Shown piece by piece: positions 5,056-47,713 of a stretch of 47,713 bases of DNA. The notes beneath the pieces are model-generated. The model saw only the letters and a list, made by a program, of their open reading frames with translations. It was not told where the DNA came from and did no database searches. Position 1 is the first letter of the stretch. Every line of letters starts with the position of its first letter. Origin of the DNA: Methanobrevibacter millerae. GTDB taxonomy: Archaea > Methanobacteriota > Methanobacteria > Methanobacteriales > Methanobacteriaceae. A program made the translations under genes and the position numbers. Location of the stretch: NCBI RefSeq assembly GCF_900103415.1, contig NZ_FMXB01000003.1, forward strand, positions 479 to 48,191, read 5' to 3'.

Positions 5056-5059
5056 AAAA

Positions 5060-6211: not shown

Positions 6212-6239
6212 ATTGTATTCATAATTTAGAATCATTTTT
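6197..6239. terminator. Hairpin terminator between convergent genes
   Basis: Arms 6197-6213 and 6217-6233 pair over 17 positions with two mismatches around a TGT loop, followed by TTTTT at 6235-6239. The 5' arm includes the stop codon of the GT2 gene. It lies between convergent genes and may act on both; the T-run favours the + strand. Confidence 0.75.
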
Positions 6240-6265
6240 GATTTTACTGAATATCATGAATAAAT

Positions 6266-6958
6266 TTAACTAAAAATTTCATGTATAGTGTCCTTTTTTC
6301 CAATTTGATTGTTAACATTGGATTCATGGATAGTTGCAGTCCACATTGGATGTTCGGTTTCAAAAAAAACCACATTATTATTTTCTAAAATTTTTGCATG
6401 ATTATACCTTAGAATGGAAGTTCCTTTTTGACTAATCAGTGAACAGAAAGGATTGTCTTTTCGTATATAATGATATTTTTTATTTGTTTTCAAATCTAAT
6501 TTTTCACCATGGGGAAATGAAATAATGCAATTATGCAGATTGTTGTCTGCATAATCTTGAATTTGTTTTATAAAACTTTTTTCAATCATATCATCGTTGT
6601 CAACTCTACTAGTAATATAAAAATCATAATTATCATTTTTGGTACAGAAATTTAGTGAAGTAAATTCTTCTTCATCATCAAAATAATAATCATCAAATTC
6701 ATAAATTTTTTTTAATTCATTTATTCTCTTTAAAAATTCATCTGGTGTATTCTTATGAAATAAAACAACCCAAGTAAAATTTTGATTAATCTGATTTTTT
6801 ATAGATGGCAATGTATATTTTTCAAATATATTAAATCGTTCTTCTAAATAATCGTCATCAAATATTCTAAGCATTGGATTATTGTCCGGATCTCTTAATT
6901 CACACCCATAATGGACTCTAAGATTAAATCTTGTTATTAAATAATGTTTGTATTTCAA
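6266..6958 (-). CDS. Putative rhamnosyltransferase-like glycosyltransferase
   Basis: The 230-residue product has HYLITRFNLR near the N-terminus, RFNIFEKYTLPSIKNQ, WVVLFHKNTPDEF and an acidic SRVDNDD at about residue 115, the set of features of the 'putative rhamnosyl transferase' family (PF11316 type), a GT2-like fold with DxD as the metal site. The start is a TTG at 6956-6958, supported by GGCGAT about 7 nt upstream; a nearby upstream ATG is out of frame. It is transcribed against the glycosyltransferase operon and divergently from the nucleotide-sugar dehydrogenase. Role by context: adding a deoxyhexose or similar sugar to the surface glycan. The family match is good; the actual sugar is an inference. 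Confidence 0.72.
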   Translation of the reverse strand: MKYKHYLITRFNLRVHYGCELRDPDNNPMLRIFDDDYLEERFNIFEKYTLPSIKNQINQNFTWVVLFHKNTPDEFLKRINELKKIYEFDDYYFDDEEEFTSLNFCTKNDNYDFYITSRVDNDDMIEKSFIKQIQDYADNNLHNCIISFPHGEKLDLKTNKKYHYIRKDNPFCSLISQKGTSILRYNHAKILENNNVVFFETEHPMWTATIHESNVNNQIGKKDTIHEIFS

Positions 6959-7050
6959 AATATCGCCTTTTCATATTAATCTTTGATAATTTTTAAATAG
7001 TAATATTTATCAAAAAATATCAAAAGTATTTTATTGATATTTTATTTCAA

Positions 7051-7062
7051 TAGTTATTTATA
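7051..7062 (+). promoter_or_regulatory. TATA-like element for the nucleotide-sugar dehydrogenase
   Basis: TTATTTATAATT lies about 25-30 nt upstream of ATG 7086. There is no ribosome binding site between them, which fits a leaderless or nearly leaderless transcript. The other direction serves the rhamnosyltransferase-like gene. Confidence 0.45.
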
Positions 7063-7085
7063 ATTATACACATAAATGTTATCTT

Positions 7086-8384
7086 ATGAATTTGACTATT
7101 ATTGGAGTAGGTTATGTTGGGCTAGTTACTGGAACTTGCTTTGCCGAAATGGGTAATAAGGTATATTGTGTCGATATAGATGAAAAAAGAATCAATAATT
7201 TAAAAAAAGGTATTATTCCAATTTATGAGCCTCATTTAGAAACTATGGTGATTGATAATCAAAGCAAAAATAATCTAATTTTTACAACTAATTTAAAAGA
7301 GGCATTGGATGATTCTAATATTATTTTCATTGCAATTGGCACTCCTGAATCTGAAGGGGGAGGAGTTAATTTAGATTTTATTTTCACTGTTGCAAAACAA
7401 ATTGCAGATAATATCACAAAAGAATCATTAATTGTTACTAAATCAACTGTTCCGGTTGGAACTAATTTTAAAATAAAAGAAATCATCAATGAAAATTCGG
7501 ATGTTGAAATTCATATTGCATCAAATCCCGAATTCCTAAAAGAAGGTGCGGCAATTGACGATTGTTTGCATCCAGATAGAATAATTATTGGTTCTGAGGA
7601 TATAAAATCAATAGAAATTTTAAAAGAATTATATGGTCCTTTCGTTTCTAATCATGATAGATTTATTATAATGGATGTTAAAAGTGCTGAAATGACTAAA
7701 TATGTTGCTAATGCCATGCTTGCAACTAAAATTTCATTTATGAATGAAATGGCCAATATTTGTGAAAAGACTGGTGCAAATATTCAAAATGTTCGATTAG
7801 GTATTGGTTCGGATAAACGTATTGGTTATAAATATATATATGCTGGTTGTGGATATGGAGGGTCATGTTTTCCAAAAGATGTAAAAGGTTTAATTAATAC
7901 ATCACTTGAAAATGGTTATATCCCATCAATATTGTCGATGGTTGATGAAGTAAATGAAGCTCAAAAAATGGTTTTAATAGATAAAATTACTAATAGGTTT
8001 GGTCATGATTTAAGTAATTTAACTTTTGGTATTTGGGGTCTTTCATTTAAACCTCAAACTGATGATGTTAGGTCAGCCCCATCAATCACCATTGTTTCCG
8101 AGCTAATTAAACGGGGAGCAAGAGTAAAAGCATATGACCCAAAAGCAATTGAAAATTTTAAATGTGAAATTAAATCAGATAATATAACTTACGTTGATTC
8201 AAAATATGATGTTTTAGATAATGCTGATGCTTTAATTTTAATCACAGAATGGAAAGAATTTAGAAGTTTAGATTTAAATGAGCTTTCAAAAAGATTAAAT
8301 CAAAAAATAATCTTTGATGGTAGAAATATTTATCCTAAAAGAATTGAAGATGAAGGTTTTGAACTTCATCAAATTGGTTGTTAA
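7086..8384 (+). CDS. UDP-glucose/UDP-sugar 6-dehydrogenase
   Basis: This 432-residue protein is a full-length UDP-sugar dehydrogenase: NAD-binding GVGYVGLVTGTCFAEMGN at the N-terminus, KSTVPVGT, EFLKEG, a central K-(x)n-N helix (AEMTKYVANAMLATKISFMNEMA), the catalytic Cys261 in GYGGSCFPKD, and a C-terminal domain with GLSFKPQTDDVRSAPS. It oxidises the C6 of a UDP-hexose twice with NAD+, giving a UDP-uronate. UDP-glucose 6-dehydrogenase is the best reading, though UDP-GlcNAc/ManNAc dehydrogenases share the motifs. It supplies uronic acid for the neighbouring glycosyltransferases. A second, unrelated-subtype UDP-glucose dehydrogenase gene 5 kb away is dead, so this may be the only local source. 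Confidence 0.9.
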   Translation: MNLTIIGVGYVGLVTGTCFAEMGNKVYCVDIDEKRINNLKKGIIPIYEPHLETMVIDNQSKNNLIFTTNLKEALDDSNIIFIAIGTPESEGGGVNLDFIFTVAKQIADNITKESLIVTKSTVPVGTNFKIKEIINENSDVEIHIASNPEFLKEGAAIDDCLHPDRIIIGSEDIKSIEILKELYGPFVSNHDRFIIMDVKSAEMTKYVANAMLATKISFMNEMANICEKTGANIQNVRLGIGSDKRIGYKYIYAGCGYGGSCFPKDVKGLINTSLENGYIPSILSMVDEVNEAQKMVLIDKITNRFGHDLSNLTFGIWGLSFKPQTDDVRSAPSITIVSELIKRGARVKAYDPKAIENFKCEIKSDNITYVDSKYDVLDNADALILITEWKEFRSLDLNELSKRLNQKIIFDGRNIYPKRIEDEGFELHQIGC

Positions 8385-8429
8385 AAAGAATGAATATTTT
8401 CCATAATTTGAAAATTTTAAAGTATTTAT

Positions 8430-10271
8430 TTATTTCAATGGGAAACAATCGATTAACTGTTCTTGTTTTTCATGTACTTGGTTAATTGATTTAAAGTTAC
8501 ATTTAAAATCTTTATCAATTTGGGGGTAATTTCCACTTCTTAAATCAAAAAATTCTCTATCATTACCAAAAGATGAAAAATAATCGTGAAATTTAAACCG
8601 TTTTCCTAAAATTTTATCTGAAACTTCACACCAACAATTCGGAATGCCGTACGAATCAGCAATTATTATGCCATGAAGACTGGTGGAGATAATATATTCG
8701 CACATGGATATTTCATTCAAAACATCTTTAGTTTCATTTTGAACATCAATAATTTTTGAATTTGGGTAATATTCTAGCATTTTTTTAAAAATTTCTTCTT
8801 CTTTATCTACATAATGGGGAATAATGCCCATGTGCCATTTTTTTTCAGAAGATTTAACAATTAATGGAGATAAAAGTCCTGGATCAGCTAAAACACATGA
8901 AACATCCTTTTCAAGTATTTTTGATAAATGTTGTCTGGTTTTTTCGCCCCGTAAAGCATGAATGATTAAAGGTCGAACATTACTTTGATTAATGTTCTCA
9001 TAATGATGCATTAAACCTGTTCCCCAAATATGAATTGGCTTATTCCCATCACAATCTTCTTGCATTTTCTTGTTCTGATTATTAATATTTGTGTTTGTAA
9101 AAAGCATGTCTAGAATGCTGCCAATAGCACATAAATCTGCACTTTGAAATGAATCTAATTCAAAATTCAACTTAAAAATCGATGATAAAATTTCTTCATT
9201 TAACATATCGCCCACATTTGGGTATTTATAATAATATAATTTAACATTAAATGATTCTTTTATTTTTTTGAGATATTTTAAATATTCTTCATAAGACACA
9301 TTTCTCCAAACCCAATTCAATACATTATCCATACCTTTTTCATCATCCGTATTTTTCAAATAATGATTAACAGTTATGGAAATTTGTTTAGCATACCAAT
9401 CTTCAACATTAGGAATTGTATGGTTTTCTTTCAAATAATAATAAATTTTCTTTTTTTCTTCAAGATTCTTTATTATAAAATCTGATTCATGATTAAACGT
9501 ATCATTTTCCCCATGTACTCGATATATTCCTATAATTTTTTTATTAATGAAAGTTTTTCCACCCATCATTAAAGCTCTTAAATATACCGAAGTATCATTC
9601 ATCATTGTCATTTCTTTAAATTGACTTTCAATTAGTGTTTTTCTTCTGAATACTGCAGGGAATAATGATGTTGGTTTTCTATATTTAATCATAAAATTTT
9701 TTAAGTATTCAATTGAATCGATTTGTCCATCATTAAAATTCACACTCGAATACACATATTTATTTTCTTTTTCATAATGAGTATATGATTCGGAACAGAT
9801 TATATTGATATTTTCATCTTTAAATATGTTTATTAAATCAAAAAAATAATCTTCATCAATAAAATAGCAATCATCATCACAAAAAATCACATAATCTCCA
9901 GTTGATAGATTATAACCTTTTTGTCTGTTTAATCCCATTCCTAAATTTTCATAATTTAAAAAATATTTTAATCGTTTGTCTGGATAATTACTATAAATTT
10001 CATTCGTTTTGTCACTGGATATGTCATCAATTAGAATAATCTCAAAATTTTGGTATGTTTGGTTAAAAATACTGTTAATTAGTTGTGTTAATTGTTCAAA
10101 TCTGTTGTGTGTGGGTATTATAATGCTAATTTTTTGATTTTCATTGATATCTTTATTTTTGGGGGTTATGTTCATATAAGTTTTTATTAAATTATTATAA
10201 GCTGAATTACTGAGTTTGTTTTCTTCATTTTTTAGCTTAAAATCATTTAAATAATCTTTCATAATATCCAT
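8430..10271 (-). CDS. GT2 glycosyltransferase fused to polysaccharide pyruvyl transferase
   Basis: The 613-residue product is a fusion. Residues 46-270 form a GT2 domain (ISIIIPTHNR, IDD at 81-83, CDDD at 131-134). Residues about 343-605 form a polysaccharide pyruvyl transferase domain (PF04230 type): KLYYYKYPNVGDMLNEEIL, IWGTGLMH, HALRGEKTRQHL, DPGLL, STSLHGIIIADSYG and the C-terminal WCEVSD. The first domain would add a sugar and the second would place a ketal pyruvate from phosphoenolpyruvate on a sugar, giving the glycan negative charge. ATG 10271 is used; a second in-frame ATG three codons later is possible. It faces the dehydrogenase gene tail to tail. Having both activities in one chain is less usual than separate genes. 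Confidence 0.88.
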   Translation of the reverse strand: MDIMKDYLNDFKLKNEENKLSNSAYNNLIKTYMNITPKNKDINENQKISIIIPTHNRFEQLTQLINSIFNQTYQNFEIILIDDISSDKTNEIYSNYPDKRLKYFLNYENLGMGLNRQKGYNLSTGDYVIFCDDDCYFIDEDYFFDLINIFKDENINIICSESYTHYEKENKYVYSSVNFNDGQIDSIEYLKNFMIKYRKPTSLFPAVFRRKTLIESQFKEMTMMNDTSVYLRALMMGGKTFINKKIIGIYRVHGENDTFNHESDFIIKNLEEKKKIYYYLKENHTIPNVEDWYAKQISITVNHYLKNTDDEKGMDNVLNWVWRNVSYEEYLKYLKKIKESFNVKLYYYKYPNVGDMLNEEILSSIFKLNFELDSFQSADLCAIGSILDMLFTNTNINNQNKKMQEDCDGNKPIHIWGTGLMHHYENINQSNVRPLIIHALRGEKTRQHLSKILEKDVSCVLADPGLLSPLIVKSSEKKWHMGIIPHYVDKEEEIFKKMLEYYPNSKIIDVQNETKDVLNEISMCEYIISTSLHGIIIADSYGIPNCWCEVSDKILGKRFKFHDYFSSFGNDREFFDLRSGNYPQIDKDFKCNFKSINQVHEKQEQLIDCFPLK

Positions 10272-21029: not shown

Positions 21030-21037
21030 TCAAAGTT
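21015..21037 (-). terminator. Short hairpin at the end of the metallo-hydrolase operon
   Basis: On the minus strand AACTTT-gat-AAAGTT (21023-21037) includes the stop codon and is followed by TTATTTTG. It is a small stem, so a weak terminator at best. Confidence 0.4.
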
Positions 21038-21896
21038 CATTAATTTTAATTCCAACTTTATCTTCTGAGATTTCCTCATCAAGATGAACATGGATAAATG
21101 TTCCTTCATCATCATGATAATAATCCACAAAAATATCTCCATCATTGCGAGTAGTTAAACACCGTCTCTGTTCGCCACCAACAATTAATCCTCTTGTTTT
21201 ATTATAATATTTTTCTCTTGCACTACTTTCATCAGATTTATCTGAAATTATTGTTAATAATGGGTTTAGATGGGATACAAATTCCAAATCGAAATAAGAA
21301 TCGAGCCCATGGTGTGGTGCGAGTAAAATATCAACATGTTTTAATTCCATATAGTCTTCATCATCCTTTATTTCAGATATGTTATTTAAGTCATTGTCTC
21401 CCATTAACAATATTTTAGCATCGTAAAACTTGATTAATAATGCTAAACTATAATAATTTACTTCTGAGTTATTTTTTTCCTTAGGACAGTATGTGAGGAA
21501 TTCTAAACCTCCCCAATTATTTGGATTTTCGAATTTTAATTCTTTAGAAATGGGCGCATTATAAAAATTAACCATGGCCATATATTTTTCATATATTTTT
21601 TTGTCATCATCAGATGCATTAGATAATAAATTTTCATATAACTCATCAGGGAAATATTTATTTCCCACAAATATCCTAGGGCACATATTATATTCATCCA
21701 ACTTTAATAGGCCTTTAATATGATCTTTGTGGGGATGAGATATAATCAAACAATCTAAATCAATGTTATTTTCATAAAGATAATCAACGGGAATGTCTCC
21801 ACCAATATCAAAAAGAATTGTTCTATCATTTGAAGTTTTTATAAATACTGAATTGCCACGATTTAAATCAAAAATTTTAATATTCAATGTTTCCAT
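21030..21896 (-). CDS. ComEC-type metallo-beta-lactamase-fold protein, copy 2
   Basis: The 288-residue soluble protein is a metallo-beta-lactamase fold of the ComEC/Rec2 C-terminal type without the competence membrane domains. Metal ligands are visible in SHPHKDH (His54, His56, Asp58, His59), LLMGDND and LAPHHG, and it ends in LTTRNDGDIFV shared with its neighbour copy. Such folds hydrolyse phosphoesters, nucleotides or nucleic acids. The start has a strong AAAGGAGG and overlaps the end of the membrane gene by 20 nt, so it is the third gene of an operon. It is about as similar to the first gene as expected of an old tandem duplicate separated by the membrane gene. Biological substrate unknown. 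Confidence 0.82.
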   Translation of the reverse strand: METLNIKIFDLNRGNSVFIKTSNDRTILFDIGGDIPVDYLYENNIDLDCLIISHPHKDHIKGLLKLDEYNMCPRIFVGNKYFPDELYENLLSNASDDDKKIYEKYMAMVNFYNAPISKELKFENPNNWGGLEFLTYCPKEKNNSEVNYYSLALLIKFYDAKILLMGDNDLNNISEIKDDEDYMELKHVDILLAPHHGLDSYFDLEFVSHLNPLLTIISDKSDESSAREKYYNKTRGLIVGGEQRRCLTTRNDGDIFVDYYHDDEGTFIHVHLDEEISEDKVGIKINEL

Positions 21897-22551: not shown

Positions 22552-23367
22552 TTAACATTTAATTACGGAATCTCCGTCTTTAATTTCAACAAAGATGTCT
22601 CCATCATTTCGTGTTGTTAAGCATTTTCTAAGTTTGGGTTTACCTTTTTCAATTATTGTTCTGCCTTTTGATTTTGAATTATATCTATCAACTGCACTAT
22701 TATCACTATCATCACTTCCATCAGAAATTATTGTAATCTTAGGTTTAAGATGATTCATTAGTTCCACACTATAACAGGATTCACGACCGTGATGGGGTGC
22801 TAAAAAGATATCAATGTCTTCAGTATGTTTCTTAAATTCGTCATTAGCTAACAATTCTTCAATATTTGATAAAGTATTGTCTCCCATTAATAATACTTTA
22901 ACTCCTTCATGCTCCATAAAAACTGTAAGGCTATAATAATTCAAATCATTCGCTTCATGTTCGGGTTTGAAACTAGTAAAAGTCACTCCGCCATTATAGT
23001 CTGTATTCGTTATGCTTATTTCGTGGGGTGTGGGCTTGTTATAGTCTTTATCAAGTTTTAAATATTGGTTAAATGCTTTAATTGCATTAGGATTATCCGA
23101 TGAATCTCTTGATTCTTCAATTAATTTTTTTGGGATAGATTTATTCCGTAAAATGGTTTTTGGTTTTCTATCGTCCATTTCTGCAAGTCCACTAATGTGG
23201 TCTAAATGTGGATGGCTAATAATTAAACAGTATAAATTACCATTTACATAATCTAAGGGATTCTTATTTTCACACATTCCCAAATCAAATAAAATTTTCA
23301 CGGTTTCTGTTTCAATTAAAACTGAACATCCATGACCTATATCAAAAAATCTTAATTTTAGAGTCAT
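22552..23367 (-). CDS. ComEC-type metallo-beta-lactamase-fold protein, copy 1
   Basis: The 271-residue protein is the first gene of the operon, with a very strong GGAGGAAGG ribosome binding site before ATG 23367. It has RFFDIGHGCSVLIE, the metal motif SHPHLDH (His52, His54, Asp56, His57), LLMGDNT and LAPHHGRES, then CLTTRNDGDIFVEI near the end. These are the blocks of ComEC-type metallo-beta-lactamase folds. It differs from copy 2 in DIGHG versus DLNRG at the first loop and in an extra SDDSDNSA stretch. No signal peptide, so it acts in the cytoplasm. It is co-transcribed with the membrane gene. AVAST type I defence systems also include a stand-alone metallo-beta-lactamase protein, but no protease-STAND partner is seen here, so that parallel is loose. 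Confidence 0.84.
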   Translation of the reverse strand: MTLKLRFFDIGHGCSVLIETETVKILFDLGMCENKNPLDYVNGNLYCLIISHPHLDHISGLAEMDDRKPKTILRNKSIPKKLIEESRDSSDNPNAIKAFNQYLKLDKDYNKPTPHEISITNTDYNGGVTFTSFKPEHEANDLNYYSLTVFMEHEGVKVLLMGDNTLSNIEELLANDEFKKHTEDIDIFLAPHHGRESCYSVELMNHLKPKITIISDGSDDSDNSAVDRYNSKSKGRTIIEKGKPKLRKCLTTRNDGDIFVEIKDGDSVIKC

Positions 23368-26356: not shown

Positions 26357-27541
26357 ATGAGATGTGTGGGTACTGTCATACGTGGAATAAGAACGCCTAT
26401 CGTTAAGGAAAACGATGATTTGCCAACAATTGTTGTTGATTCAGTTATGGCTGCAAAGGAAAGTGAAGGATTTGAATTTAGAGACAAGGATATCGTTGCA
26501 ATCACCGAAGCGGTTGTAGGAATTTCAGAAGGAAACTATGTAACCGTCGATGATATCGCTCAAGATGTAGCAAGCAAGTTCCCGTCCAAAAACATTGGTG
26601 TTGTAAACCCGATTTTAAGCAGGAACAGGTTTTCAATCGTTTTAAAGGGTATTGCAAGAGGAATGGATAAGATTACATTGCAGACTTCCTTCCCGGCAGA
26701 TGAGGTCGGAAACGGAATATTGGATGAAGAGCTCTTAAACGAAAGCGAATACAACTTGGGAAGCGTTATCACAGAAAAACAGTACACTGAAACCTTCGGC
26801 TCATGGATTCACCCGTTCACCGGAATCAACATGATTGACTTTTACCGTGAACTCATAGAAGAGGAAGACTGTGAAGTCGAATTCGTATTCTCAAACGACA
26901 TAAAGACAATCCTTGACTACAACACGGACATTTTAACCTGTGACATTCACACAAGGGAGAAAACAGTTAAAACCCTCAAGGATGAGGGAGCAAACGTCTT
27001 TGGACTGCACCAGATTTTAACCGAACCTGTCGGTGACTCAGGATGCAACCCTGACTATGGTTTACTAGGTTCTAATAAAGCTACAGAAGAAAAATTAAAG
27101 CTCTTCCCTAAAACGGGCGATGCAGTAGTCAATGAAGTTCAAAAAAGACTGATTGACTTAACCGGAAAGCAAATCGAGGTTATGGTTTACGGTGACGGAG
27201 CATTCAAGGATCCTGTTGGAAAAATCTGGGAGCTAGCTGACCCTGTAGTTTCACCTGCACACACAAGCGGACTTATAGGAACTCCAAACGAAATCAAGCT
27301 CAAATACGTTTCTGACAACAAATTTGCTGATTTAAAAGGTGACGAATTGAAAGAAGCAATCAAAGAAGAAATCAGAAACAAGGACAAGGACTTAACCGGC
27401 CAGATGATTACCGAAGGAACCACTCCAAGGGTATTGACTGACTTAATCGGTTCATTATGTGACCTCACAAGCGGTTCCGGAGACAAGGGAACTCCTGTCG
27501 TATTTATTCAGGGATATTTCGACAACCTGTCCAACGACTAA
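26357..27541 (+). CDS. CofE-like (F420-0:L-glutamate ligase family) protein
   Basis: The 394-residue protein begins GTVIRGIRTPIVKENDD and has DKDIVAITEAVVGISEGN, NIGVVNPILSRNRFSIVLKGIARG, GDGAFKDPVGKIWELADPVVSP and a C-terminal GTPVVFIQGY, which match the longer branch of the F420-0:gamma-glutamyl ligase family (CofE, PF01996 type). CofE itself adds glutamates to the deazaflavin cofactor F420 using GTP; the longer paralogs are often of unproven function, so I do not assign cofE. AGGAG about 11 nt upstream of ATG 26357 supports the start. It stands in a single-gene unit with TATA near 26270 and a hairpin terminator. Codon use is chromosomal in type. Confidence 0.78.
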   Translation: MRCVGTVIRGIRTPIVKENDDLPTIVVDSVMAAKESEGFEFRDKDIVAITEAVVGISEGNYVTVDDIAQDVASKFPSKNIGVVNPILSRNRFSIVLKGIARGMDKITLQTSFPADEVGNGILDEELLNESEYNLGSVITEKQYTETFGSWIHPFTGINMIDFYRELIEEEDCEVEFVFSNDIKTILDYNTDILTCDIHTREKTVKTLKDEGANVFGLHQILTEPVGDSGCNPDYGLLGSNKATEEKLKLFPKTGDAVVNEVQKRLIDLTGKQIEVMVYGDGAFKDPVGKIWELADPVVSPAHTSGLIGTPNEIKLKYVSDNKFADLKGDELKEAIKEEIRNKDKDLTGQMITEGTTPRVLTDLIGSLCDLTSGSGDKGTPVVFIQGYFDNLSND

Positions 27542-36262: not shown

Positions 36263-39200
36263 ATGAAAAGGAAATTTTTAATTCTGATTTGTTTTGTATT
36301 CATGGTCTCAATGGCTGCTGTTTCAGCGACAGATGATTTGAATCAAACGGATGATGATGCATTAAGCATATCTTTAAGTGATGATGTTGTTGTTGGAAGT
36401 CCAGATAAAGGTACTTTCACGGATTTGCAAAAAAAGATTGATGATGCCAATGAGAACTCGACAATTGTACTGGAAAATGATTATAAGTATGATTCCGGTT
36501 TTTCAGATGACGGCATAATTATTGATAAGGCATTAACTATTAATGGTAATGGGCATGTAATTGACGCTTTAGGCCAATCAAGAATTTTCAATATTGGTTC
36601 GCAAACAGTAACTTTGAATAATATTGCGTTTAAGAATGGTCTTTCAAGTGATGATGGTGGTGCTATTAAGTCTAATTCAGATAGGTTAACTGTTAGCAAT
36701 TGTAATTTTACCAATAATAAAGTGACTCGTGAGTATAGTTATGGTGGCGCAATCTACATGTCTGCGGGTAGTATTGAAAATTGTAATTTCATTAATAATT
36801 CTGCTTCTTATCGCAGTGGTGCGGTTTTCTTCTCGGATGATGGTGAAGTAACAAATTGTAATTTCATTAATAATTCCGCTGATGAAAGGGGTGGTGCCAT
36901 TTCTATGCAACGGGGCAACATTATTGGTTGTAGTTTTGTAGGCTGTGTAGCTTCTCAAGGCGGTGCCATTAGGTCACTTGCTAATTTGAATGTTTATAAT
37001 TCTAGTTTTGTAGGCTGTGTGGCTTCTGAAGGCGGCGCTATTTATTCGGGGAATAGTTTAAGTGTTAAAAAATGTAATTTTGTAAATAATTCAGCTAATA
37101 GTGGCGGTGCAGTATATGTTTTCAACTCATATTATTTGTTTAATTATCAGGAGGTTGCAGATTCTTATTTTGTGAATAATTCCGCTAATTGTGGCGGAGC
37201 TATTTTGGTTGATAGATATAAAACATTCGATCCCATCAATTCTATTTTTATAAACAATACTCCTGAGGATATTGGCAATATCAATGTTCCCTTTTCAATC
37301 AAGTTAAATCGAAGTGCGAATTATAATAATAACGTTTGCATGATTTTTTACAATGATTTTGGTGTTATAACTGATGCTACGGGAAATGTCACAGTCAAAT
37401 TCAATAATACTGAAGAAATTTTTGATTTGAATGATTATTATATTAATCTGAATTTAGGAAATCTTCCTGCAGGTAGCTATGCTATCAATGTATCTTATGA
37501 TGGGGATGCACATTATACCTCCTGTAATACTTTGTTAACTCTTTCTATTGTTGATTCCACATATCATTCATTCACTGAGTTACAGAAGTTAATTGATAAT
37601 GTTGAAGATGGAGGCACTGTTGAATTAGCATATAATTATATTTATGGTTTAAATAGTACTGATGAAAGCATTATCATCGATAAATCTTTAAAAATTGATG
37701 GTAATGGATATACAATTAACGGAAATGGTTATGGTGGAATTACTTGTGAAAGCGGCAGTGTGGATATTGGCAATTGTAGTTTTGTGAATTGTGGTGGTGT
37801 TTCCGGTTCTGATATTGGCAATTGTAGTTTTGTGAATTGTGGTGGTGTTTCCGGCTCAAGAATTCTTGATTGCAGTTTCAAAAATGCTTCTGCTTATGCC
37901 GTTTCTATTTACCAATATTCTTCTGGTGAAATTGCCGTTGTGGGTGATTGCAGTTTTGAGGATTGTCCTTATGGTGCTGTCAGCTGTAAATGCTATTTTT
38001 CCAATGTCCTCATCAGGGGCTGCAGCTTTGTGAATTGTGACGGCGATGATTACGGTGCCATTTTTACAGACGGCTACTGTTCTAATTTGACTGTTTCCAA
38101 TTGCAGTTTCAATGGCTGTTCTGCCAGTAGGGGAGGAGCTATTTTCATTTCCAATTTTGTAGATTATTATGATGTCACTGTTGATGGCTGCAGTTTTGAG
38201 GATTGTTCCGCTGGTTTAGGGGGTGCTATTTCATATGATGTTCGCAGTTGCAGTGGCATTGTTGCAGGATGCAGTTTTGTGAACTGTTCTGCAGGTAGTG
38301 GCGGCGCTATCTTTAATGCTGCCTGTGACGTTGTGGGATGCAGTTTTGTAAACTGTTCAGCCAATGATTATAGTGGTGCTGTTTATGGTGCTCAAGCTAC
38401 AGTCAGTGACTCTAGTTTTTTGAATTGCTATTCAAAAATGAGATATGGTGCTGTTTTTGCTTTAAATACTGTTAATTGCAGTTTTGTGAATTGTTCTGCC
38501 AGAGATGGTGGTGCAGGTTCAGGCAATTTCACTGATTGTAGTTTTGTAAACTGTTCTGCTGTCGGCATTGATGGGCTTGGAGGAGCAATCTTTAACCAGG
38601 CTGAAGATTATCCTGCCTATGCATATGTCATGAGATGCAGCTTTGAGGATTGCTCTGCAGTTTATGGCGGCGCAATCTTAATGGATCCTAACAGTTTTTC
38701 CTATTCTATTGATTTAAGCGGCTGTAGTTTTGTGAATTGCCGAGCTGATATGGTGGCGGGCGCCATATTTTCCGATGATGCTAATATTGATGATTGCAGT
38801 TTTATGAACTGTTCTTCTTATGCTGGTGGTGCAGTTTTTATATTCGGAGATAATCTGGTCTGCATCAATTCGAATTTTTCGAATAATTCTGCCGGCATGG
38901 GCAATGCAATTGTGTGGTTTGGAGCTAATGGCAGGGCTGCCTATCTGCTTGTTGACAGCTGCAGTTTTTTAAATAACTATAATCCTGATTCAGTTGGTGG
39001 GTCAGTCATATATACTGACTGTGACACGCCATACCCTGGATGGTTTGAAATTAATGGAATTTCATTATTTTCTCCGGATTCCAGCGCAGGAAATTTCACG
39101 ATTAGGGATTCTTCCTTCAGCGATGATTATCCTTTATATGGCCCATTCATTTCCATAAAAAATAAGGTTTTGGAATTCAACGTTAAGGATGAAGTACTCA

Positions 39201-40408
39201 CAGGTGATGTAAAGTTAAAAATCAATGGCGAAAGCTTTGAGGAAAGTTTGACTTCTGGTAAGGCTTATTTTGACTTGAATGGATTTTCACCGGATGTCTA
39301 TGACATTAATCTTGTCTATTCCGGGGATGAGAAACATTCCGGTTTGGAAATTAGCACTCCCATACTGCTTAAGGAAGCTGTCCAGCCAAGAGTTTCAATT
39401 AGGGCGGATGATGTCACCAAGTATTTCAAAGGTCCTGAACGCTTTGTAGTTTATTTATCCGATTCTGACGATAATCCTGTTGCAGATGCTAGTGTTAATA
39501 TTACCATTAATGGAAATACCTACACCAGAATCACTGATGAAAATGGTATGGCTTCAATGGCTCTCAATTTAAACAGTGGAACCTATCCTGTCCTAACCCA
39601 GTGCAATGACACTAGGGTCAATTCAAAAGTGACAATCAAATCAACCATCAGCGGTGAAAACGTCACCAAGATGTTCAGAAACGGCACGCAGTACTATGCC
39701 GCTTTCGTTGATACTTCCGGTAAGACGTTGGCCGAAAACACTGCGGTTGAGTTCAACATCAACGGTGTCTTCTACACCCGATACACAAATGAAAACGGTG
39801 TGGCACGCATGAACATCAACCTGAACCCTGGAGAGTACATAATCACAGCAAAGAACCCTGAAAACGGCGAGATGTACACAAACATCATTACTGTTTTGCC
39901 TACAATCGTTGAAAACTACGACTTGACCAAGTATTACAAGAACGCTTCCCAATACACTCTCAGATTACTTGACGACCAGAGTAATCCTGTAAAAGCGGGC
40001 GTGGACGTTAAATTGAACATTAACGGTGTATTCTACACTAGAACATCCAATGATGACGGTTACGTTAAAATGAACATCAACCTTGAGCCTGGTGAATATA
40101 CGATTACTGCCGAGTACAATGGTTTAATGGCATCAAACAAAATCAAGGTCTTATCCGTTATTGAAACCCATGACCTGGTAATGAAATACAAGGACGGATC
40201 CAAGTTCGAAGCCAAGATTTTAGACGGTCAGGGTAAAGCATATCCTGCTCAGAAAGTAACCTTCAACATCAACGGTGTATTCTATGAAAGATTCACTGGT
40301 GATGACGGTATTGCTAGGTTGAACATTAACCTGATGGCTGGCGAATACATTATCACCACAAGCTATAACGGCATGAACGCCGCAAACAAAGTTACCATTT
40401 CAAGTTAG
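36263..40408 (+). CDS. Adhesin-like protein with Cys-rich beta-helix and Ig-like repeats
   Basis: The 1381-residue protein has a signal peptide (KRKFLILICFVFMVSMAAVSA), a first beta-helix array (about 52-330; NCNFINNSA...GGAIY), an Ig-like spacer (about 335-430), a long second beta-helix (about 433-965) and Ig-like repeats (about 970-1035 and four at 1045-1381) ending NKVTISS. The second array replaces the usual FINNSA by SFVNCSA and NCSF, giving dozens of Cys at fixed spacing, while keeping N-X-S sequons. Its coding DNA is T-rich in the beta-helix but C-rich in the last four repeats, which are close to those of the other members, so the C-terminal block has been exchanged. AGGT before ATG 36263 supports the start. 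Adhesion or cell-cell contact is the likely role. Confidence 0.86.
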   Translation: MKRKFLILICFVFMVSMAAVSATDDLNQTDDDALSISLSDDVVVGSPDKGTFTDLQKKIDDANENSTIVLENDYKYDSGFSDDGIIIDKALTINGNGHVIDALGQSRIFNIGSQTVTLNNIAFKNGLSSDDGGAIKSNSDRLTVSNCNFTNNKVTREYSYGGAIYMSAGSIENCNFINNSASYRSGAVFFSDDGEVTNCNFINNSADERGGAISMQRGNIIGCSFVGCVASQGGAIRSLANLNVYNSSFVGCVASEGGAIYSGNSLSVKKCNFVNNSANSGGAVYVFNSYYLFNYQEVADSYFVNNSANCGGAILVDRYKTFDPINSIFINNTPEDIGNINVPFSIKLNRSANYNNNVCMIFYNDFGVITDATGNVTVKFNNTEEIFDLNDYYINLNLGNLPAGSYAINVSYDGDAHYTSCNTLLTLSIVDSTYHSFTELQKLIDNVEDGGTVELAYNYIYGLNSTDESIIIDKSLKIDGNGYTINGNGYGGITCESGSVDIGNCSFVNCGGVSGSDIGNCSFVNCGGVSGSRILDCSFKNASAYAVSIYQYSSGEIAVVGDCSFEDCPYGAVSCKCYFSNVLIRGCSFVNCDGDDYGAIFTDGYCSNLTVSNCSFNGCSASRGGAIFISNFVDYYDVTVDGCSFEDCSAGLGGAISYDVRSCSGIVAGCSFVNCSAGSGGAIFNAACDVVGCSFVNCSANDYSGAVYGAQATVSDSSFLNCYSKMRYGAVFALNTVNCSFVNCSARDGGAGSGNFTDCSFVNCSAVGIDGLGGAIFNQAEDYPAYAYVMRCSFEDCSAVYGGAILMDPNSFSYSIDLSGCSFVNCRADMVAGAIFSDDANIDDCSFMNCSSYAGGAVFIFGDNLVCINSNFSNNSAGMGNAIVWFGANGRAAYLLVDSCSFLNNYNPDSVGGSVIYTDCDTPYPGWFEINGISLFSPDSSAGNFTIRDSSFSDDYPLYGPFISIKNKVLEFNVKDEVLTGDVKLKINGESFEESLTSGKAYFDLNGFSPDVYDINLVYSGDEKHSGLEISTPILLKEAVQPRVSIRADDVTKYFKGPERFVVYLSDSDDNPVADASVNITINGNTYTRITDENGMASMALNLNSGTYPVLTQCNDTRVNSKVTIKSTISGENVTKMFRNGTQYYAAFVDTSGKTLAENTAVEFNINGVFYTRYTNENGVARMNINLNPGEYIITAKNPENGEMYTNIITVLPTIVENYDLTKYYKNASQYTLRLLDDQSNPVKAGVDVKLNINGVFYTRTSNDDGYVKMNINLEPGEYTITAEYNGLMASNKIKVLSVIETHDLVMKYKDGSKFEAKILDGQGKAYPAQKVTFNINGVFYERFTGDDGIARLNINLMAGEYIITTSYNGMNAANKVTISS
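37763..37858 (+). repeat. 48-nt in-frame tandem duplication in the Cys-rich beta-helix
   Basis: Units 37763-37810 and 37811-37858 differ only at their last few bases. Each encodes DIGNCSFVNCGGVSGS, so the copy number can change without breaking the frame. Confidence 0.9.
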
Positions 40409-40631: not shown

Positions 40632-43600
40632 ATGAAGCGAAAAATACTGCTTTTAATTTGTTTGATTTTATTCATCGTCTCAATAGCTGGCGTATCTGCC
40701 GTAGACGATTTAAATCAGACAGTTGACGAGGATACTTTAAGCGTATCTTTCAATGAGGATAGTATTGTCTCATTGGATGATAAGGATACTATTGATTTGC
40801 AAAAAATGATTGATGATGCTGAAAACGGTTCATCAATAACTTTAGAAAAGGATTATAAACTTAATTTTATAGCTTCATCTGGAGGATTACATGTTAATAA
40901 AGTATTGACTATTGAAGGTAACGGGCATGTTATTGATGCTTTAGGATTATCCAGGATTTTTTACGTTGGTTCAGATTCAATAACTTTGAAGAATATTGCT
41001 TTTAAACATGGTTCTGCTGAAGAGGAGGGTGGTGCAATTTATTCTATTGGTGATATTAATCTTTTTGGATGTAGCTTAATAGATTGTCATGCAGAGTATG
41101 GTGGTGCTGTTTATTCTTTAGGCAATGTTAATCTTGTTGATTGTACTATTACTAATTGTCATGGCTCTGGTAGCGGTGCTGTTTATGCGGATAGTGTCAA
41201 TGCTGTTCGCACCAGTTTTCTAAATTGTATTTCTCACGATATGGGTGCTGGCATCTTTTCTGGTGGTGATGTCACTCTCGTTGATTGTAAATTTGAAAAT
41301 TGTAAAAATGAAGAGTCTGTTGGCGGTGCCGTTTATTCTGTGAAAGGTAATGTCTCTGCTATCGGTTCTACTTTTTTAAATTGTTTTTCTGAATTTTGGG
41401 GTGCTGCAATCTTCGGTGAAAAAAATATTGATGTTGTTAATTGTACTTTCCTAGCCAATACTGGAGAGGGCTTTGGTCACTATATTGGTGGCGGTGCCAT
41501 TTATTCTTCAGGTAATCTGACTGTTTTAACCTCCAATTTTACAGATAACTATGCTCAGGGAGGAGGTGCCATCTATGCGGGAGGTTATTTCTCTATTGAT
41601 GGTTGTAATTTCATAGGCAATTCTGCTGATACCAGTATCGGAGGTGCCATTTTTATTGAGGGTGAAGGAAGTGTTGTTGATTGCAGTTTTTCACAAAATG
41701 GTGGATGTGCCATTCATTCTTCAGGTAATCTGACTGTTTTAACTTCCAATTTCACAGATAACTATGGTCCATATGGTGGTGCTATTCATTCCACTGGAAA
41801 TATCACTGTTTTGAATTCTAATTTTATAGGCTCTTCTGCCGATGAAAACGGGGGTGCTGTTTACTCTTCCGGTGAAGGTAGTTTCACTCAATGTAATTTT
41901 ATGGGTTCTTCTTCCTACGAGGGTGGTGGTGCTATTTATTCCACAGGTAATCTTTCTGTTTTAGATTCCAATTTCACAGGCAATTCTATCAGTTACGAGG
42001 GTGGTGGCGCTATTTATTCGACCAGCAATCTTTACGTTTCTAATTCCAGATTTGTTGGAAATTCTGCAAATATATATAGAGGTCGTGGTGGCGCAATATA
42101 TGCCGACGGTAAGGGCAGTTTAGTTGATTGTACTTTCCAGGATTGTTCTGCCAAGGATGGTGGAGGCGCAATTTACTTTGGAGAACATGCTAATATAAGT
42201 ATTGTAAACGGTCTTTTTGATAATAATTCTCCAAATGACTTTAATTCAGGTAATGTGACTACGAATAATGTTACGGTTTCATCACATATGGATGTAAATC
42301 TTAATAAAACCATAATCTACAAGTTTGATGGAATTCAAATTGACATAAAATTTAATGAAGAAGTTACGGGTAACATCAGCATCATTATTAATGGCGTAGA
42401 AGAATTGTTTTCTCCGGCTTATGGTTCAATATCTTTCTCTAAATATAATTTAGAACCTGGAAAATATGACTTAATCGTAAAATATAGTGGGAATGATGTG
42501 TTTTCACCCTGCATAAAAACCGCTGCTTTTGAAGTTGCAGCAGCATCATTTAAGGATTTGCAGAAATCCATAAATAATGTCCATCGCAGTGAATTTGATT
42601 TGGATAAAAATTATACTTATGTCGATTATGTTGACGATAATTCTCCAATATTCATTAGAAAAAACTTCAAGATTTATGGAAATGGCTATACAATAGATGC
42701 GGCTAATGCCAACGCCCTATTTTACATTGAAAATGCCAATGTCGAATTCCATGATATTAATTTTAAAAACGGAATAAATTATAAGGAATTTGGCGCAATA
42801 TCTTTAAACAATAGTAATTTAATAATTTCCAATTCCAATTTCGTTAATTTTGAAGGGCAAAACGGCGGTGCCATATATGCTCTTAGCGGACTTTTATACG
42901 CAACGGATTCTAATTTCACAGATTGTACTGTCAGTGGAAGCGGCGGTGCTATCTATGGTGCAGATATTGTTGTTAGGGATTGTAATTTCATTGATTGTTC
43001 TGCAAAGGATAAGGGTGGTGCCATTTATTCCACTGCATGTTCAAATGTCTTCGATTCCAATTTCACAAATACATTTTCTTATGGGGGAGGTGCTGTTTAT
43101 TCCTCTCAATTTTTAAATGTCATAAATTCCAATTTTGAAAATATTCGCACCCTGGAAAAGTGGTGGGATGGATATGACGGTGGTGCTGTTTATGCCGCCA
43201 CCAATGGTACTGTTAAAGGTTCTACTTTCAGGGAATGTTCTGCCACCGGTAGAGGTGGTGCCGTTTATGCTGAAGGCTGTTTGGATGTTAGTGATTCAAT
43301 TTTCATTGATAATTCTGCTAACGGTGGTGGCGCTATCTATTCATATCAATCATTGAATGTTGCAAACTCTGATTTTGTGCATGATCGGACTTGTGGTGAT
43401 TGGTTTGCCCATAATTTTTGTGGTGGCGCTATTAATTGTGAAGGCAATGTCACTGTTGTTAGCTCAAGATTTATGGACTGTTTTGCTAATGATGGGTCAG
43501 GAGGTGCTGTCTTTGCTGCAGGCAATTTAAATGTCAGTGATTCTAATTTCACCCATAACTCTGCTTATGAGGGAGGCTCCCTTTATTCAGATGCTAATGT

Positions 43601-46600
43601 CAGTGCTTCAGGCTCCAGCTTCATAAACTGTTCTGGTGCGGCCATGTGTGCTTATGGCAATATTGGAATTGTTGATTGCAGTTTTGCAAATAACGCATTC
43701 ATTAAAAATTATTGGAGTGGTGACGAAGGCACTATCCGTGGCACTGGAATAAGCATTATCAATTCTACTTTTTCAAGTTCCAGCATTTCCTTTAATTCCA
43801 TTAATTTCACGGTTGTTAATTCAACTTTTGTGGACTCTCCAATTTCTTGCGATTCCAGTAATTTCACTGTTGATTCATGTGTTTTCACTGATGCTTCTGG
43901 AAATGCACCTATCTCTTCTTCATCAAGCACTTTAAAAATAAGCAATTCCATTTTTGAAGATAATTATGGTCGGGATGCTGGTGCAATTTATTCTAAGGGT
44001 AATTTAACAGTCGTAAATTCAAATTTTACTCATAATTCAGCTCATGATGGAGGTTATTGGGACGATTATCCAGGTATAATTTATTCCAATGGTAATTTAA
44101 CTGTCGTAAATTCAAGCTTTGTGAATAATTTTGTTAATGTGGAATATGGTTATATTGCTGCAGTTTTTGCAGTATCTAACCTTAGCATAATCAATTCAAG
44201 CTTTATTAATAATACGAATTGCAATCAGGATAATCTTATTTATATCAATCCTTATGCGCGTATGCCTTATGTCGATTGTCGCTTCATACCGGTAATTTTC
44301 ATTCCCGATAAAAGTTTTGGTGATTTAACAGTTAAAAATTCTACTTTTGGTGGAGAATATCCAACATATTCTGGTTTAATCCATATGTATAGAAATTATC
44401 TGATATTTGAATCAAATCAGTATTCAGATGAAAGCTATGCAACATTGGAAATTAATGATAAACTATTTAATCAAACCTTAAGTTCCGGTTCCACTTCTTT
44501 TAATTTAAGCGGATACGCACCTGATTTATATGATGTTATAATTATGTATTCTGGCGATGATTCCTATGATGGTTTGGAAATGAATATTTCCCTTTTAATA
44601 GGCTTTGTTAAAATTAAAATTACAGTTCCTGATGTCACAATGGATTATGGTGATTATAAAAGTTTAAAAATTACTTTAACTGAAGATGGAGTTCCTATTG
44701 AGGATGCAAAGGTTAATATTAATATTGGTGGTAAAAATTACATCAGATATACTGATTATATGGGAAGGGCTTATTTGTCTCTTAATTTAGATGCGGGAGT
44801 TTATAATGCAGTTGTCAGTTATGAAGGGGTTTTTGCCAATGCTACAGTCACTGTCAATCCATTAGCTACTGAAACTAAATTATCATACAGTAAAGATGGC
44901 TATGATTCAGTGACTTTAAATGCTGAAATTGATTCTTATCAAGCATCAGGGGAAGTCGTATTCATTGTAAATGGCAATAACTATACTTCGAAAGTTGAAT
45001 ACGGCCAAGCCACTTACACTTTAAATGATATGGATGTCGGCAATTATACCGTCCAGGCATTCTATAAAGGCAATAAAAATTACATTAATTCAACTTCCAA
45101 TTCAGTAAGCTTTGAAATCGAGCAATCTTCCTACGCTTTGGATGTTGATGACGTTACAATGGATTATGGGGATTACGAATATTTAACAGTTACCTTGACT
45201 GATGACGGAAGCCCTGTTGCTTATGAAGACATTGATATTGAAATTGATGGGGAAACTTACACAAGAACTACGGACGAAGACGGAGTTGCTTCAATGTTCA
45301 TTTATCTTGATGCCGGCGTTTATACGGCTTTTGTCAGTTATCAGGACGTTTCCGCTAATGCTACAGTTACTGTAAATCCGTCAGCTACTGAGATTACATT
45401 GTCCTACACTAAAGAGAGTAGTGATTCAGTTATATTGAGCGTTATGATTTCACCGTCACTAGATGATGGAGATTTGATTTTCACGGTTAACGGTGAAGAT
45501 TATTATTCAGAGATTTGTGACGGTGAAGCCACCTACGATTTATGGGGTTTGGATGTTGGCAATTATACCGTTCAGGCATTCTATGGAGGCGATAATAATC
45601 ATCTTAATTCAACTTCCAATAAAATAATCTTTGAAATTGGTGAATCTTCAATTGTTTTGGATGTTGAGGATGTTGAAATGGATTATGGCGATTATGGCTA
45701 TTTAACGGTCACATTAACTGAAGATGGATATCCTATTGCTGATGCTGATATTTATATTGAAATTGATGGCGTTATATACACAAGAACTACCGATGATGAT
45801 GGTGAATCTTCAATTCTTCTTGACTTGGATGCTGGCGTTTATGACGCTTATGTCACTTACGAAGATTATTCTACTACTGCAATAGTCACTGTTAATCCGC
45901 TAAGCACAAACACGACTTTAGCATTTGTTGAAAATCGCAATAACGTTACTTTAACGGCAGCTGTTACTCCATCTGATGCATATGGTGAGATAATATTTAC
46001 AGTAAACGGTGAAAAATATTATATTGATTTCATTGGCGGAAAAGCAATCTTGAATTTAACCGATTTGGCTGTGGGTGATTATACTGTTGTTGCCGAATAT
46101 TGTTGTGAGGACGATAACTATGAATCTTCCATGTCAAATGAGGTTTCATTTAATGTTGAAAAAGCTAAAAATAATTTAACTTTAAAAGCTTCTACAACTC
46201 CTATTGCTGTTGGTCAGGTGGCTATTATTGTTGTTGAAGGTTTTGAGAATGCTACTGGTAATGCTTCTGCTCGTGTTGGCAATGGCATTTATTTCGCTTC
46301 AATTGATGGGGGTATTGCTGTATTTAGAATTTCCGGTTTAATTGCTAACGATACTGCATTAATTAGTTATCCTGGTGATGATAAGTATAATAACGCTTCA
46401 ACTAGTGTTGACATTATCGTTAATCCGGCTCCGGTAATTCCTAAGGACAATTTGACTTTAGTAGCTTCCACAGCTCCGATTACTGTTGGTCAGGTTGCTA
46501 TTGTTGTTGTTGAAGGATTTGAAAATGCTACTGGTAATGCTTCTGCTCGTGTTGGTAATGGTGTTTATTTTGCTCCAATTAATGGTGGCAGTGCTGTATT

Positions 46601-47713
46601 TAGAATTCAGGATTTAGTTGAAAACACAACTGCGTTAATTAGTTATCCTGGTGATGATAAGTATAATAATGCTTTTACTACTGTTGATATTGTTGTTATT
46701 CCTAAGGAGAATTTGACTTTAGTGGCTTCTACTACTCCGATTACTGTTGGTCAGGTTGCTATTGTTGTTGTTGAAGGTTTTGAGAATGCTACTGGTAATG
46801 CTTCTGCTCGTGTTGGCAATGGTATTTACTTTGCTTCAATTGATGACGGTATTGCTGTATTCAGAATTTCTGATTTAATTGCTAATGATACTGCATTAAT
46901 TAGTTATCCTGGTGATGATAACTACAATGAAGCATCAACAAGCATTGATATTATCGTTAATCCGGTTGATACAAATATTACTTTATCATTTGCCGTTAAT
47001 GGTAATAATGTTACATTAACTGCTGATGTCCGTCCGTCTGATTTAACTGGTGAAGTCATATTCAATGTTAACGGTGAAAATTACACTGCTCAAATAGCTA
47101 ATTCTAAAGCGATTTACACGTTGGCTAATCTGGAAGCAGAATCATATGTCGCTAATGCATTTTATGCAGGCAATGCTACGTATAAATCTTGCCAGTCCAA
47201 TGAGGTTTCATTCAATATCAGTGACGATTACTTTGTAATTACTGCTCCGGACTTAGAAAAGTATTATCATGGTCCTGAACGCTTTGCAGTTACTTTAACT
47301 GACAGCAAAGGAAATCCTGTCACTAATGCAAGCGTTTCCATTAACATTAACGGAAACGACTACACAAGAGTAACTGATGATAAAGGTGTTGCTTCAATGG
47401 CAATTAACTTAAACAGTGGCGTTTACGATGTTACAACCAAATACAATGCTTCTGAAGTAAAATCAACCGTAACAATCAAAGCTACTGTCAGTGGAGAAAA
47501 CATAACCAAGATGTTTAGAAACGGAACGCAGTACTATGCTACCTTCTATGATACAAAAGGTAACACTTTAGCCAATAACACGGCAGTCGAGTTCAACATC
47601 AACGGTGTTTTCTATACCCGTTACACCAACGAGAAAGGTGTTGCACGTATGAACATCAACCTGAACCCTGGCGAGTACGTAATTACGGCTAAAAACCCTA
47701 ATTCAACCGAACA
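40632..47713 (+). CDS. Very large adhesin-like protein (3' end outside window)
   Basis: From ATG 40632 the frame appears open to the window edge at 47713, giving at least 2360 residues; there is no stop in the parts I read. The signal peptide is KRKILLLICLILFIVSIAGVSA. Two beta-helix arrays (about 50-540 and 640-1270) show GGAIYS, NSNFTDNYA and VDCTFQDCSA rungs. Three double Ig-like units with the marker MDYGDY follow (about 1335-1845), then three near-identical units with GFENATGNASARVGNG (46170-46970), then the family Ig-like repeats (from about 2195), still incomplete at the edge. GGGTAAG about 5 nt before the ATG is a weak ribosome binding site. The layout matches a long stalk with a beta-helix tip. 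It is probably on the cell surface. Confidence 0.85.
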   Translation, partial: MKRKILLLICLILFIVSIAGVSAVDDLNQTVDEDTLSVSFNEDSIVSLDDKDTIDLQKMIDDAENGSSITLEKDYKLNFIASSGGLHVNKVLTIEGNGHVIDALGLSRIFYVGSDSITLKNIAFKHGSAEEEGGAIYSIGDINLFGCSLIDCHAEYGGAVYSLGNVNLVDCTITNCHGSGSGAVYADSVNAVRTSFLNCISHDMGAGIFSGGDVTLVDCKFENCKNEESVGGAVYSVKGNVSAIGSTFLNCFSEFWGAAIFGEKNIDVVNCTFLANTGEGFGHYIGGGAIYSSGNLTVLTSNFTDNYAQGGGAIYAGGYFSIDGCNFIGNSADTSIGGAIFIEGEGSVVDCSFSQNGGCAIHSSGNLTVLTSNFTDNYGPYGGAIHSTGNITVLNSNFIGSSADENGGAVYSSGEGSFTQCNFMGSSSYEGGGAIYSTGNLSVLDSNFTGNSISYEGGGAIYSTSNLYVSNSRFVGNSANIYRGRGGAIYADGKGSLVDCTFQDCSAKDGGGAIYFGEHANISIVNGLFDNNSPNDFNSGNVTTNNVTVSSHMDVNLNKTIIYKFDGIQIDIKFNEEVTGNISIIINGVEELFSPAYGSISFSKYNLEPGKYDLIVKYSGNDVFSPCIKTAAFEVAAASFKDLQKSINNVHRSEFDLDKNYTYVDYVDDNSPIFIRKNFKIYGNGYTIDAANANALFYIENANVEFHDINFKNGINYKEFGAISLNNSNLIISNSNFVNFEGQNGGAIYALSGLLYATDSNFTDCTVSGSGGAIYGADIVVRDCNFIDCSAKDKGGAIYSTACSNVFDSNFTNTFSYGGGAVYSSQFLNVINSNFENIRTLEKWWDGYDGGAVYAATNGTVKGSTFRECSATGRGGAVYAEGCLDVSDSIFIDNSANGGGAIYSYQSLNVANSDFVHDRTCGDWFAHNFCGGAINCEGNVTVVSSRFMDCFANDGSGGAVFAAGNLNVSDSNFTHNSAYEGGSLYSDANVSASGSSFINCSGAAMCAYGNIGIVDCSFANNAFIKNYWSGDEGTIRGTGISIINSTFSSSSISFNSINFTVVNSTFVDSPISCDSSNFTVDSCVFTDASGNAPISSSSSTLKISNSIFEDNYGRDAGAIYSKGNLTVVNSNFTHNSAHDGGYWDDYPGIIYSNGNLTVVNSSFVNNFVNVEYGYIAAVFAVSNLSIINSSFINNTNCNQDNLIYINPYARMPYVDCRFIPVIFIPDKSFGDLTVKNSTFGGEYPTYSGLIHMYRNYLIFESNQYSDESYATLEINDKLFNQTLSSGSTSFNLSGYAPDLYDVIIMYSGDDSYDGLEMNISLLIGFVKIKITVPDVTMDYGDYKSLKITLTEDGVPIEDAKVNINIGGKNYIRYTDYMGRAYLSLNLDAGVYNAVVSYEGVFANATVTVNPLATETKLSYSKDGYDSVTLNAEIDSYQASGEVVFIVNGNNYTSKVEYGQATYTLNDMDVGNYTVQAFYKGNKNYINSTSNSVSFEIEQSSYALDVDDVTMDYGDYEYLTVTLTDDGSPVAYEDIDIEIDGETYTRTTDEDGVASMFIYLDAGVYTAFVSYQDVSANATVTVNPSATEITLSYTKESSDSVILSVMISPSLDDGDLIFTVNGEDYYSEICDGEATYDLWGLDVGNYTVQAFYGGDNNHLNSTSNKIIFEIGESSIVLDVEDVEMDYGDYGYLTVTLTEDGYPIADADIYIEIDGVIYTRTTDDDGESSILLDLDAGVYDAYVTYEDYSTTAIVTVNPLSTNTTLAFVENRNNVTLTAAVTPSDAYGEIIFTVNGEKYYIDFIGGKAILNLTDLAVGDYTVVAEYCCEDDNYESSMSNEVSFNVEKAKNNLTLKASTTPIAVGQVAIIVVEGFENATGNASARVGNGIYFASIDGGIAVFRISGLIANDTALISYPGDDKYNNASTSVDIIVNPAPVIPKDNLTLVASTAPITVGQVAIVVVEGFENATGNASARVGNGVYFAPINGGSAVFRIQDLVENTTALISYPGDDKYNNAFTTVDIVVIPKENLTLVASTTPITVGQVAIVVVEGFENATGNASARVGNGIYFASIDDGIAVFRISDLIANDTALISYPGDDNYNEASTSIDIIVNPVDTNITLSFAVNGNNVTLTADVRPSDLTGEVIFNVNGENYTAQIANSKAIYTLANLEAESYVANAFYAGNATYKSCQSNEVSFNISDDYFVITAPDLEKYYHGPERFAVTLTDSKGNPVTNASVSININGNDYTRVTDDKGVASMAINLNSGVYDVTTKYNASEVKSTVTIKATVSGENITKMFRNGTQYYATFYDTKGNTLANNTAVEFNINGVFYTRYTNEKGVARMNINLNPGEYVITAKNPNSTE
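44610..46169 (+). repeat. Three double Ig-like units (MDYGDY marker)
   Basis: Each unit of about 180 codons begins V(P/D/E)DV.MDYGDY, continues with a TVTLTEDG...TRTTD repeat and then a second domain ending VGNYTVQAFY or VGDYTVVAEY. DNA similarity is clear but weaker than in the following block, so these are older. Confidence 0.7.
46170..46970 (+). repeat. Three near-identical tandem units (GFENATGNASARVGNG)
   Basis: Units begin at about 46170, 46446 and 46707 (87-92 codons each). Long stretches are identical at DNA level, including silent positions, so the expansion or homogenisation is recent. Each unit carries several N-X-T/S sequons (NATGNAS). Confidence 0.85.

Follow-up and report, generated by a model that had tools for sequence, protein, structure and literature searches.

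The window considered here, which is the whole stretch of DNA analysed (47.7 kb, from a Methanobacteriaceae genome of 2.72 Mb), carries a tandem array of five or more adhesin-like genes, all on one strand (27656-47713), whose C-terminal Ig-like repeats are alike; this array sits directly downstream of a gene for F420-0:gamma-glutamyl ligase (26357-27541). One of these genes encodes a protein with two beta-helices, the second of which is the subject of this analysis; its features are collected in Table 1, together with the gene that follows it.

Table 1. Features of the adhesin-like gene and its downstream neighbour, in window coordinates
Feature	Position	Strand	Remarks
Adhesin-like protein gene	36263..40408	+	One ORF, 1381 aa, 49 Cys (48 past the predicted signal peptide)
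Predicted signal peptide, residues 1-22 (MKRKFLILICFVFMVSMAAVSA)	36263..36328	+	Called by eye from the sequence
Beta-helix 1	36479..37390	+	Chlam_PMP repeats, E 3.7e-9; mainly FxxN (Asn-ladder) rungs, two FxxC (Cys 228, 252)
Ig-like domain (Big_3_5) separating the two helices	37376..37522	+	Pfam
Beta-helix 2 (Cys-ladder helix), residues ~433-960	37559..39142	+	14 FxxC rungs; second Cys column at Phe-2
FxxC Cys of beta-helix 2			Residues 510, 526, 568, 592, 619, 648, 675, 698, 722, 744, 764, 797, 826, 850
Exact tandem duplication, 48 bp (DIGNCSFVNCGGVSGS twice)	37763..37854	+	Two short rungs in helix 2
C-terminal Ig-like repeats (Big_1, Big_3_5, MG4-like)	39143..40408	+	Pfam
Next adhesin-like gene, continuing past the window end	40632..47713	+	Mixed ladder: 10 FxxC and 11 FxxN rungs

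The encoded protein combines a hydrophobic N-terminus, a right-handed beta-helix and Big repeats, the features by which adhesin-like proteins of the Methanobacteriaceae are defined, as judged by Pfam and, for helix 2, by a structural model, and it would be expected to function as an adhesin. It has no close orthologue among the sequences searched, the best relative reaching 41% over part of its length. Pfam detected no anchor domain in the 1381 residues other than the Ig-like repeats, and neither the middle domain nor the C-terminal autotransporter barrel of chlamydial Pmps, the C-terminus being Ig-like instead. Helix 1 is a Pmp-type FxxN/GGA helix recognised by PF02415, whereas helix 2 has no Pfam match even at an E-value of 5, no match in a sequence search of the PDB and no relative in a first search of genome contigs.

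What sets helix 2 apart is the residue three positions after the conserved Phe of each rung (Phe+3). This residue is Cys in 14 of its 20 rungs and Asn in two, both of the FxxN form and near the C-terminal end of the helix; with the pair in helix 1, the protein has 16 FxxC rungs. The characteristic rung reads [GND]-C-S-F-x-[ND]-C-S-A...GGA, so that Phe+3 is the FxxN position itself and Cys replaces the ladder Asn in the same register over successive rungs. Cys makes up 4.5% of helix 2 elsewhere, giving a binomial P of about 5e-15 for the column, a value that is too small since the rungs are kin by duplication, and the pattern is nonetheless real beyond doubt. DNA encoding F-x-[N/D/G/S]-C-S-A is found nine times across the whole window, against 0.12 expected by shuffling. 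The first-pass annotation had described FINNSA giving way to a SFVNCSA-like Cys column over many rungs of the second helix and had considered this unusual, and on both points the counts bear it out; the interval it assigned (36263-39150) contains the ladder, although it begins at the start of the gene and the ladder proper occupies 37.76-38.81 kb. A second Cys column lies at Phe-2. Linkage between the two columns was considered and rejected, Phe-2 being Cys in 58% of FxxN rungs and 62% of FxxC rungs.

The ladder is not the product of one recent burst of copying. Both TGT and TGC are used as Cys codons among the rungs, and when codons for the same residue are compared between rung cores, 223 of the 630 comparisons show a difference, so that one rung pair, the 48-bp repeat at 37763-37854, is the only fresh copy, and recent array copying is ruled out as the sole origin of the ladder.

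A single-sequence AlphaFold2 model of helix 2 (pTM 0.70) is a beta-helix with 12 rungs for which the ten-residue pLDDT means range from about 79 to 96; the construct is of low confidence past its residue ~330, and a separate construct of residues 690-1016 gave a pLDDT of 42. Foldseek searches with the model retrieved right-handed parallel beta-helices, including the P22 tailspike and PL6 lyases, as weak matches (best E 6e-4, low TM). In all 12 confident rungs the strand comprises Phe-1, Phe and Phe+1 and the turn Phe+2 and Phe+3, and in 9 of the 12 the Phe-2 column falls in the turn preceding the strand. In the AlphaFold models of Debrine et al. 2023 (PMC10715098), which cover chlamydial Pmps and a Methanobrevibacter protein, the FxxN and GGA motifs lie packed within the helix, and in the Pmps the Asn of FxxN line the T2 turn as a buried asparagine ladder. 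With the side-chain direction taken from these published models (PMC10715098), the Phe+3 Cys would be buried and point inward. Whether the column lies inside or outside the helix was a question that the first-pass annotation had left to structure prediction, and the model returns the same turn position for this Cys in 12 of 12 confident rungs; the accompanying suggestion that the column might cross-link cells at the surface or bind metals in the open is unlikely, Phe+3 being the inward ladder position (PMC10715098).

The same substitution is found well beyond this protein. Among 1597 distinct rungs gathered from archaeal loci, 328 are FxxC and 1269 are FxxN, which bears on the earlier suggestion that other methanogen adhesins be searched for the pattern. 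FxxC rungs cluster between proteins and also within them (133 C-C neighbours vs 116 after shuffling, P 0.0005, a value that, like others from this rung set, assumes independent rungs and is optimistic). Odd-length FxxC runs and single FxxC rungs between FxxN rungs are common. Ser occupies Phe+5 in 28% of FxxC rungs and in 1.6% of FxxN rungs, which points to a turn that has been re-adapted to Cys and is built differently around it. At the extreme, a Methanobrevibacter MAG protein (L095, RUG13973) has 34 FxxC and 0 FxxN..GG repeats and would form an all-Cys helix. A search of 84,980 species genomes for DNA encoding C-[ST]-F-x-[ND]-C-[ST]-A-x-x-G-G-A found 30 stretches, mostly titled Methanobrevibacter. 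A looser pattern lacking the GGA part matched 54 of 139 family genomes (three matches in total for the reversed control), an upper bound since it includes some recurring identical sites that may belong to other gene families. Beyond Methanobrevibacter, the search of species genomes led to proteins with at least three FxxC rungs in rumen members of the Clostridiales and Kiritimatiellae, in one more Clostridiales bacterium, in a Phycisphaerae, in a marine proteobacterium and in one further bacterium. Because it is found across family genomes and proteins, the Cys ladder is, on the strength of these sequence patterns, a recurring variant and not a private oddity. The own-genome census of FxxC and FxxN rungs drew on stretches chosen mainly around Pfam beta-helix matches and may miss Cys-ladder helices. 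That genome also encodes a giant adhesin-like protein with a long super-repeat in which FxxN and FxxC nearly alternate (NCCNCCNCNCNCNCNC; L074:1-2664, C7 from 40001).

Conservation was assessed in a stand-alone form of the helix, a secreted-looking Cys-ladder beta-helix protein of 300 aa encoded elsewhere in the same genome (C5:95945-96847, minus strand; L069:5945-6847), which contains no Ig repeats and has no convincing Pfam match. Its homologues, at 59-74% identity, span three genera, with two copies in one genome. In an alignment of five of these proteins, Phe+3 is Cys in 30 of 30 cells (six FxxC rungs), against a background in which 42% of mature columns are invariant and 58% change, and the adjacent Phe+2 varies among D, H, N, G, K, E, S and A. 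Each homologue has 7 to 11 sequons, one of which is common to all five. It is the Phe+3 Cys, and not the sequon, that looks to be the residue under selection.

The first-pass annotation had proposed that the swap adds cysteines without loss of N-X-S glycan sites, and this part of its account did not survive the counts. Scored by eye, N-C-S is present in 5 of the 16 FxxC rungs (cores from residues 670, 693, 739, 759 and 845), the others reading G-C-V, N-C-G, D-C-P, N-C-D, G-C-S, D-C-S, N-C-Y or N-C-R, and N-N-S/T, also scored by eye, is present in six of the eight FxxN rungs of the same protein. Family-wide, sequons occur in 31% of the 328 FxxC rungs vs 25% of FxxN rungs. These shares, the count of 5 in 16 and the single sequon shared by five homologues in which the Cys is invariant rule out sequon retention as the purpose of the swap. 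The host genome does encode an STT3/AglB-type oligosaccharyltransferase, and some N-C-S sites may for that reason be glycosylated, though it is not these sites that the swap keeps intact. In FxxN rungs across the family, Phe+4 is Ser or Thr in 57% of cases after a Phe+2 Asn vs 29% after Asp, which hints at some selection for sequons in ordinary Asn-ladder rungs.

The explanation we favour, with a probability of roughly two in three, is that helix 2 is a right-handed beta-helix of the Pmp and adhesin-like protein type in which an internal, structural and probably reduced Cys ladder replaces the Asn ladder. The Cys of each rung would lie in the turn of two residues that follows the S-F-x strand and would stack against its counterparts in the rungs on either side at about one strand spacing, and the Cys ladder, Phe spine, Gly-Gly-Ala turn and Phe-2 Cys column would together hold the turn and the rod, with packing and weak S-H...O contacts taking the place of the amide hydrogen-bond network. 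Selection would then act on the Cys itself, and the N-x-S/T sequons and adjoining Asn would be a by-product of the turn's liking for Asn or Asp and for Ser. The habitat is strictly anaerobic and reducing, and thiols could remain free there. No VKOR was found in the host genome, which is 99.99% complete, and no exported DsbA, its two DsbA-family proteins both starting without a signal peptide; judged from VKOR and DsbA, an oxidising export machinery is not in evidence. The habitat and the absence of these two components favour free thiols, which would probably have a stabilising role.

A different use of the same stacking would be disulfide bonding, either from one rung to the next, which would staple the rod, or from one molecule to another, which would polymerise the adhesin. 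Beta-helix geometry does put the alpha carbons of adjacent-rung Cys within one strand spacing, and the 48 Cys past the signal peptide are an even number. In-register parallel neighbours do not have the usual disulfide geometry, however, and pairwise bonding would not favour the odd-length runs and lone FxxC rungs that are so common. A precedent is recombinant PmpD, a chlamydial FxxN/GGA relative in which all 18 Cys are bonded in the dominant forms and disulfide-linked oligomers occur (PMC6005502), although this evidence comes from a recombinant protein, and the present one belongs to a strict anaerobe in which neither VKOR nor exported DsbA was found. Disulfides seem an unlikely explanation of the ladder, although the PmpD result keeps them a live alternative. 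We consider it slightly less likely still that Cys replaced Asn neutrally and spread through rung duplication and gene conversion, leaving a ladder of no particular role. The exact 48-bp duplication, the likeness of rung cores inside one protein and the tolerance of other solenoids for Cys at ladder positions would all fit such a history, but it has to contend with codon differences in 223 of 630 comparisons, with a Cys retained in 30 of 30 cells across genera where 58% of columns change, with the recurrence of the ladder in many proteins and genomes, and with the distinct Phe+5 grammar of FxxC rungs.

The notion that the Cys columns face outward, binding metals, reacting with partners or cross-linking cells with N-glycans kept alongside, is very improbable. 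A Phe+2 Asn does adjoin the Cys in the turn, and with the oligosaccharyltransferase present some N-C-S could be glycosylated; Ser or Thr at Phe+4 is also more frequent when Asn precedes it than when another residue does, strongly so in FxxN rungs and weakly in FxxC rungs (P 0.03 to 0.06). Against this, sequons are a minority among FxxC rungs and are not conserved among orthologues, glycans on each rung, one strand spacing apart, would be expected to clash, and the published FxxN models bury the Phe+3 ladder site (PMC10715098). The internal thiol ladder can also be put in a bolder form, in which FxxC helices make up a distinct class in the Methanobacteriaceae with turn rules of its own and a secreted stand-alone form that has been conserved. 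Only habitats that are permanently reducing would permit such an adaptation, in which rods held by rows of free buried thiols, open to damage by oxygen, would perhaps be responsive to redox state or soft metals; this extension is speculative, and we hold it about as doubtful as disulfide bonding.

Cysteine ladders have precedents in other solenoids. InlJ is a surface protein that Bublitz is said to have described in 2008 with a novel cysteine ladder, and it differs from helix 2 in having a leucine-rich repeat (LRR) fold. LRR proteins take N or C at the ladder position (LxxLxLxxNxL or LxxLxLxxCxxL; PMC9525666), so that there too the Asn-ladder position of a solenoid can be Cys, albeit in a different fold, with another turn and no FxxN or GGA. 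Closer in fold is FdlA-NTD, a fucoidan lyase domain that forms a right-handed parallel beta-helix, in which five Cys stack where turn meets strand, as an internal column that has been read as stabilising (PMC9410043); it differs in being an enzyme, in the shortness of the column and in keeping a separate short Asn ladder as well. Closest are the passengers of chlamydial Pmps and the adhesin-like proteins of Methanobrevibacter (PMC10715098, PMC11532034), which share the order of Phe, two residues, turn ladder residue and GGA and, in Methanobrevibacter, the build of long rods with Ig-like repeats and the FxxN/GGA type seen here in helix 1. Unlike these, helix 2 has Cys as its ladder residue in 14 of 20 rungs on the same architecture. 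Non-canonical Pmp motifs have been listed (IxxN, LxxN, VxxN, GGGI and GGVI), and the xxN variants among them all retain Asn (PMC10715098). The passages searched on methanogen adhesin-like proteins in PMC11532034, and those on Pmp-type helices, do not describe an FxxC ladder. What is new is a Cys variant of a known Asn-ladder beta-helix, one that Pfam misses. Since the Pfam beta-helix and Chlam_PMP models fail to find Cys-ladder helices, surveys that use them will undercount the class.

Adhesin-like proteins are thought to let gut and rumen methanogens hold their partners, and the majority are uncharacterised. The exchange of Cys for Asn along a ladder amounts to a clean natural swap experiment on the forces that hold beta-helix rods together, and if the thiols are free it provides an example, open to testing, of surface-protein design for life without oxygen.

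Elsewhere in the window, positions 5018-10271 carry genes of the surface-polysaccharide type, namely a glycosyltransferase 2, a UDP-glucose/GDP-mannose dehydrogenase and a glycosyltransferase 2 fused with a polysaccharide pyruvyl transferase. On the minus strand, two neighbouring genes of the metallo-beta-lactamase fold (21030-21896 and 22552-23367) flank an ORF of 224 aa.
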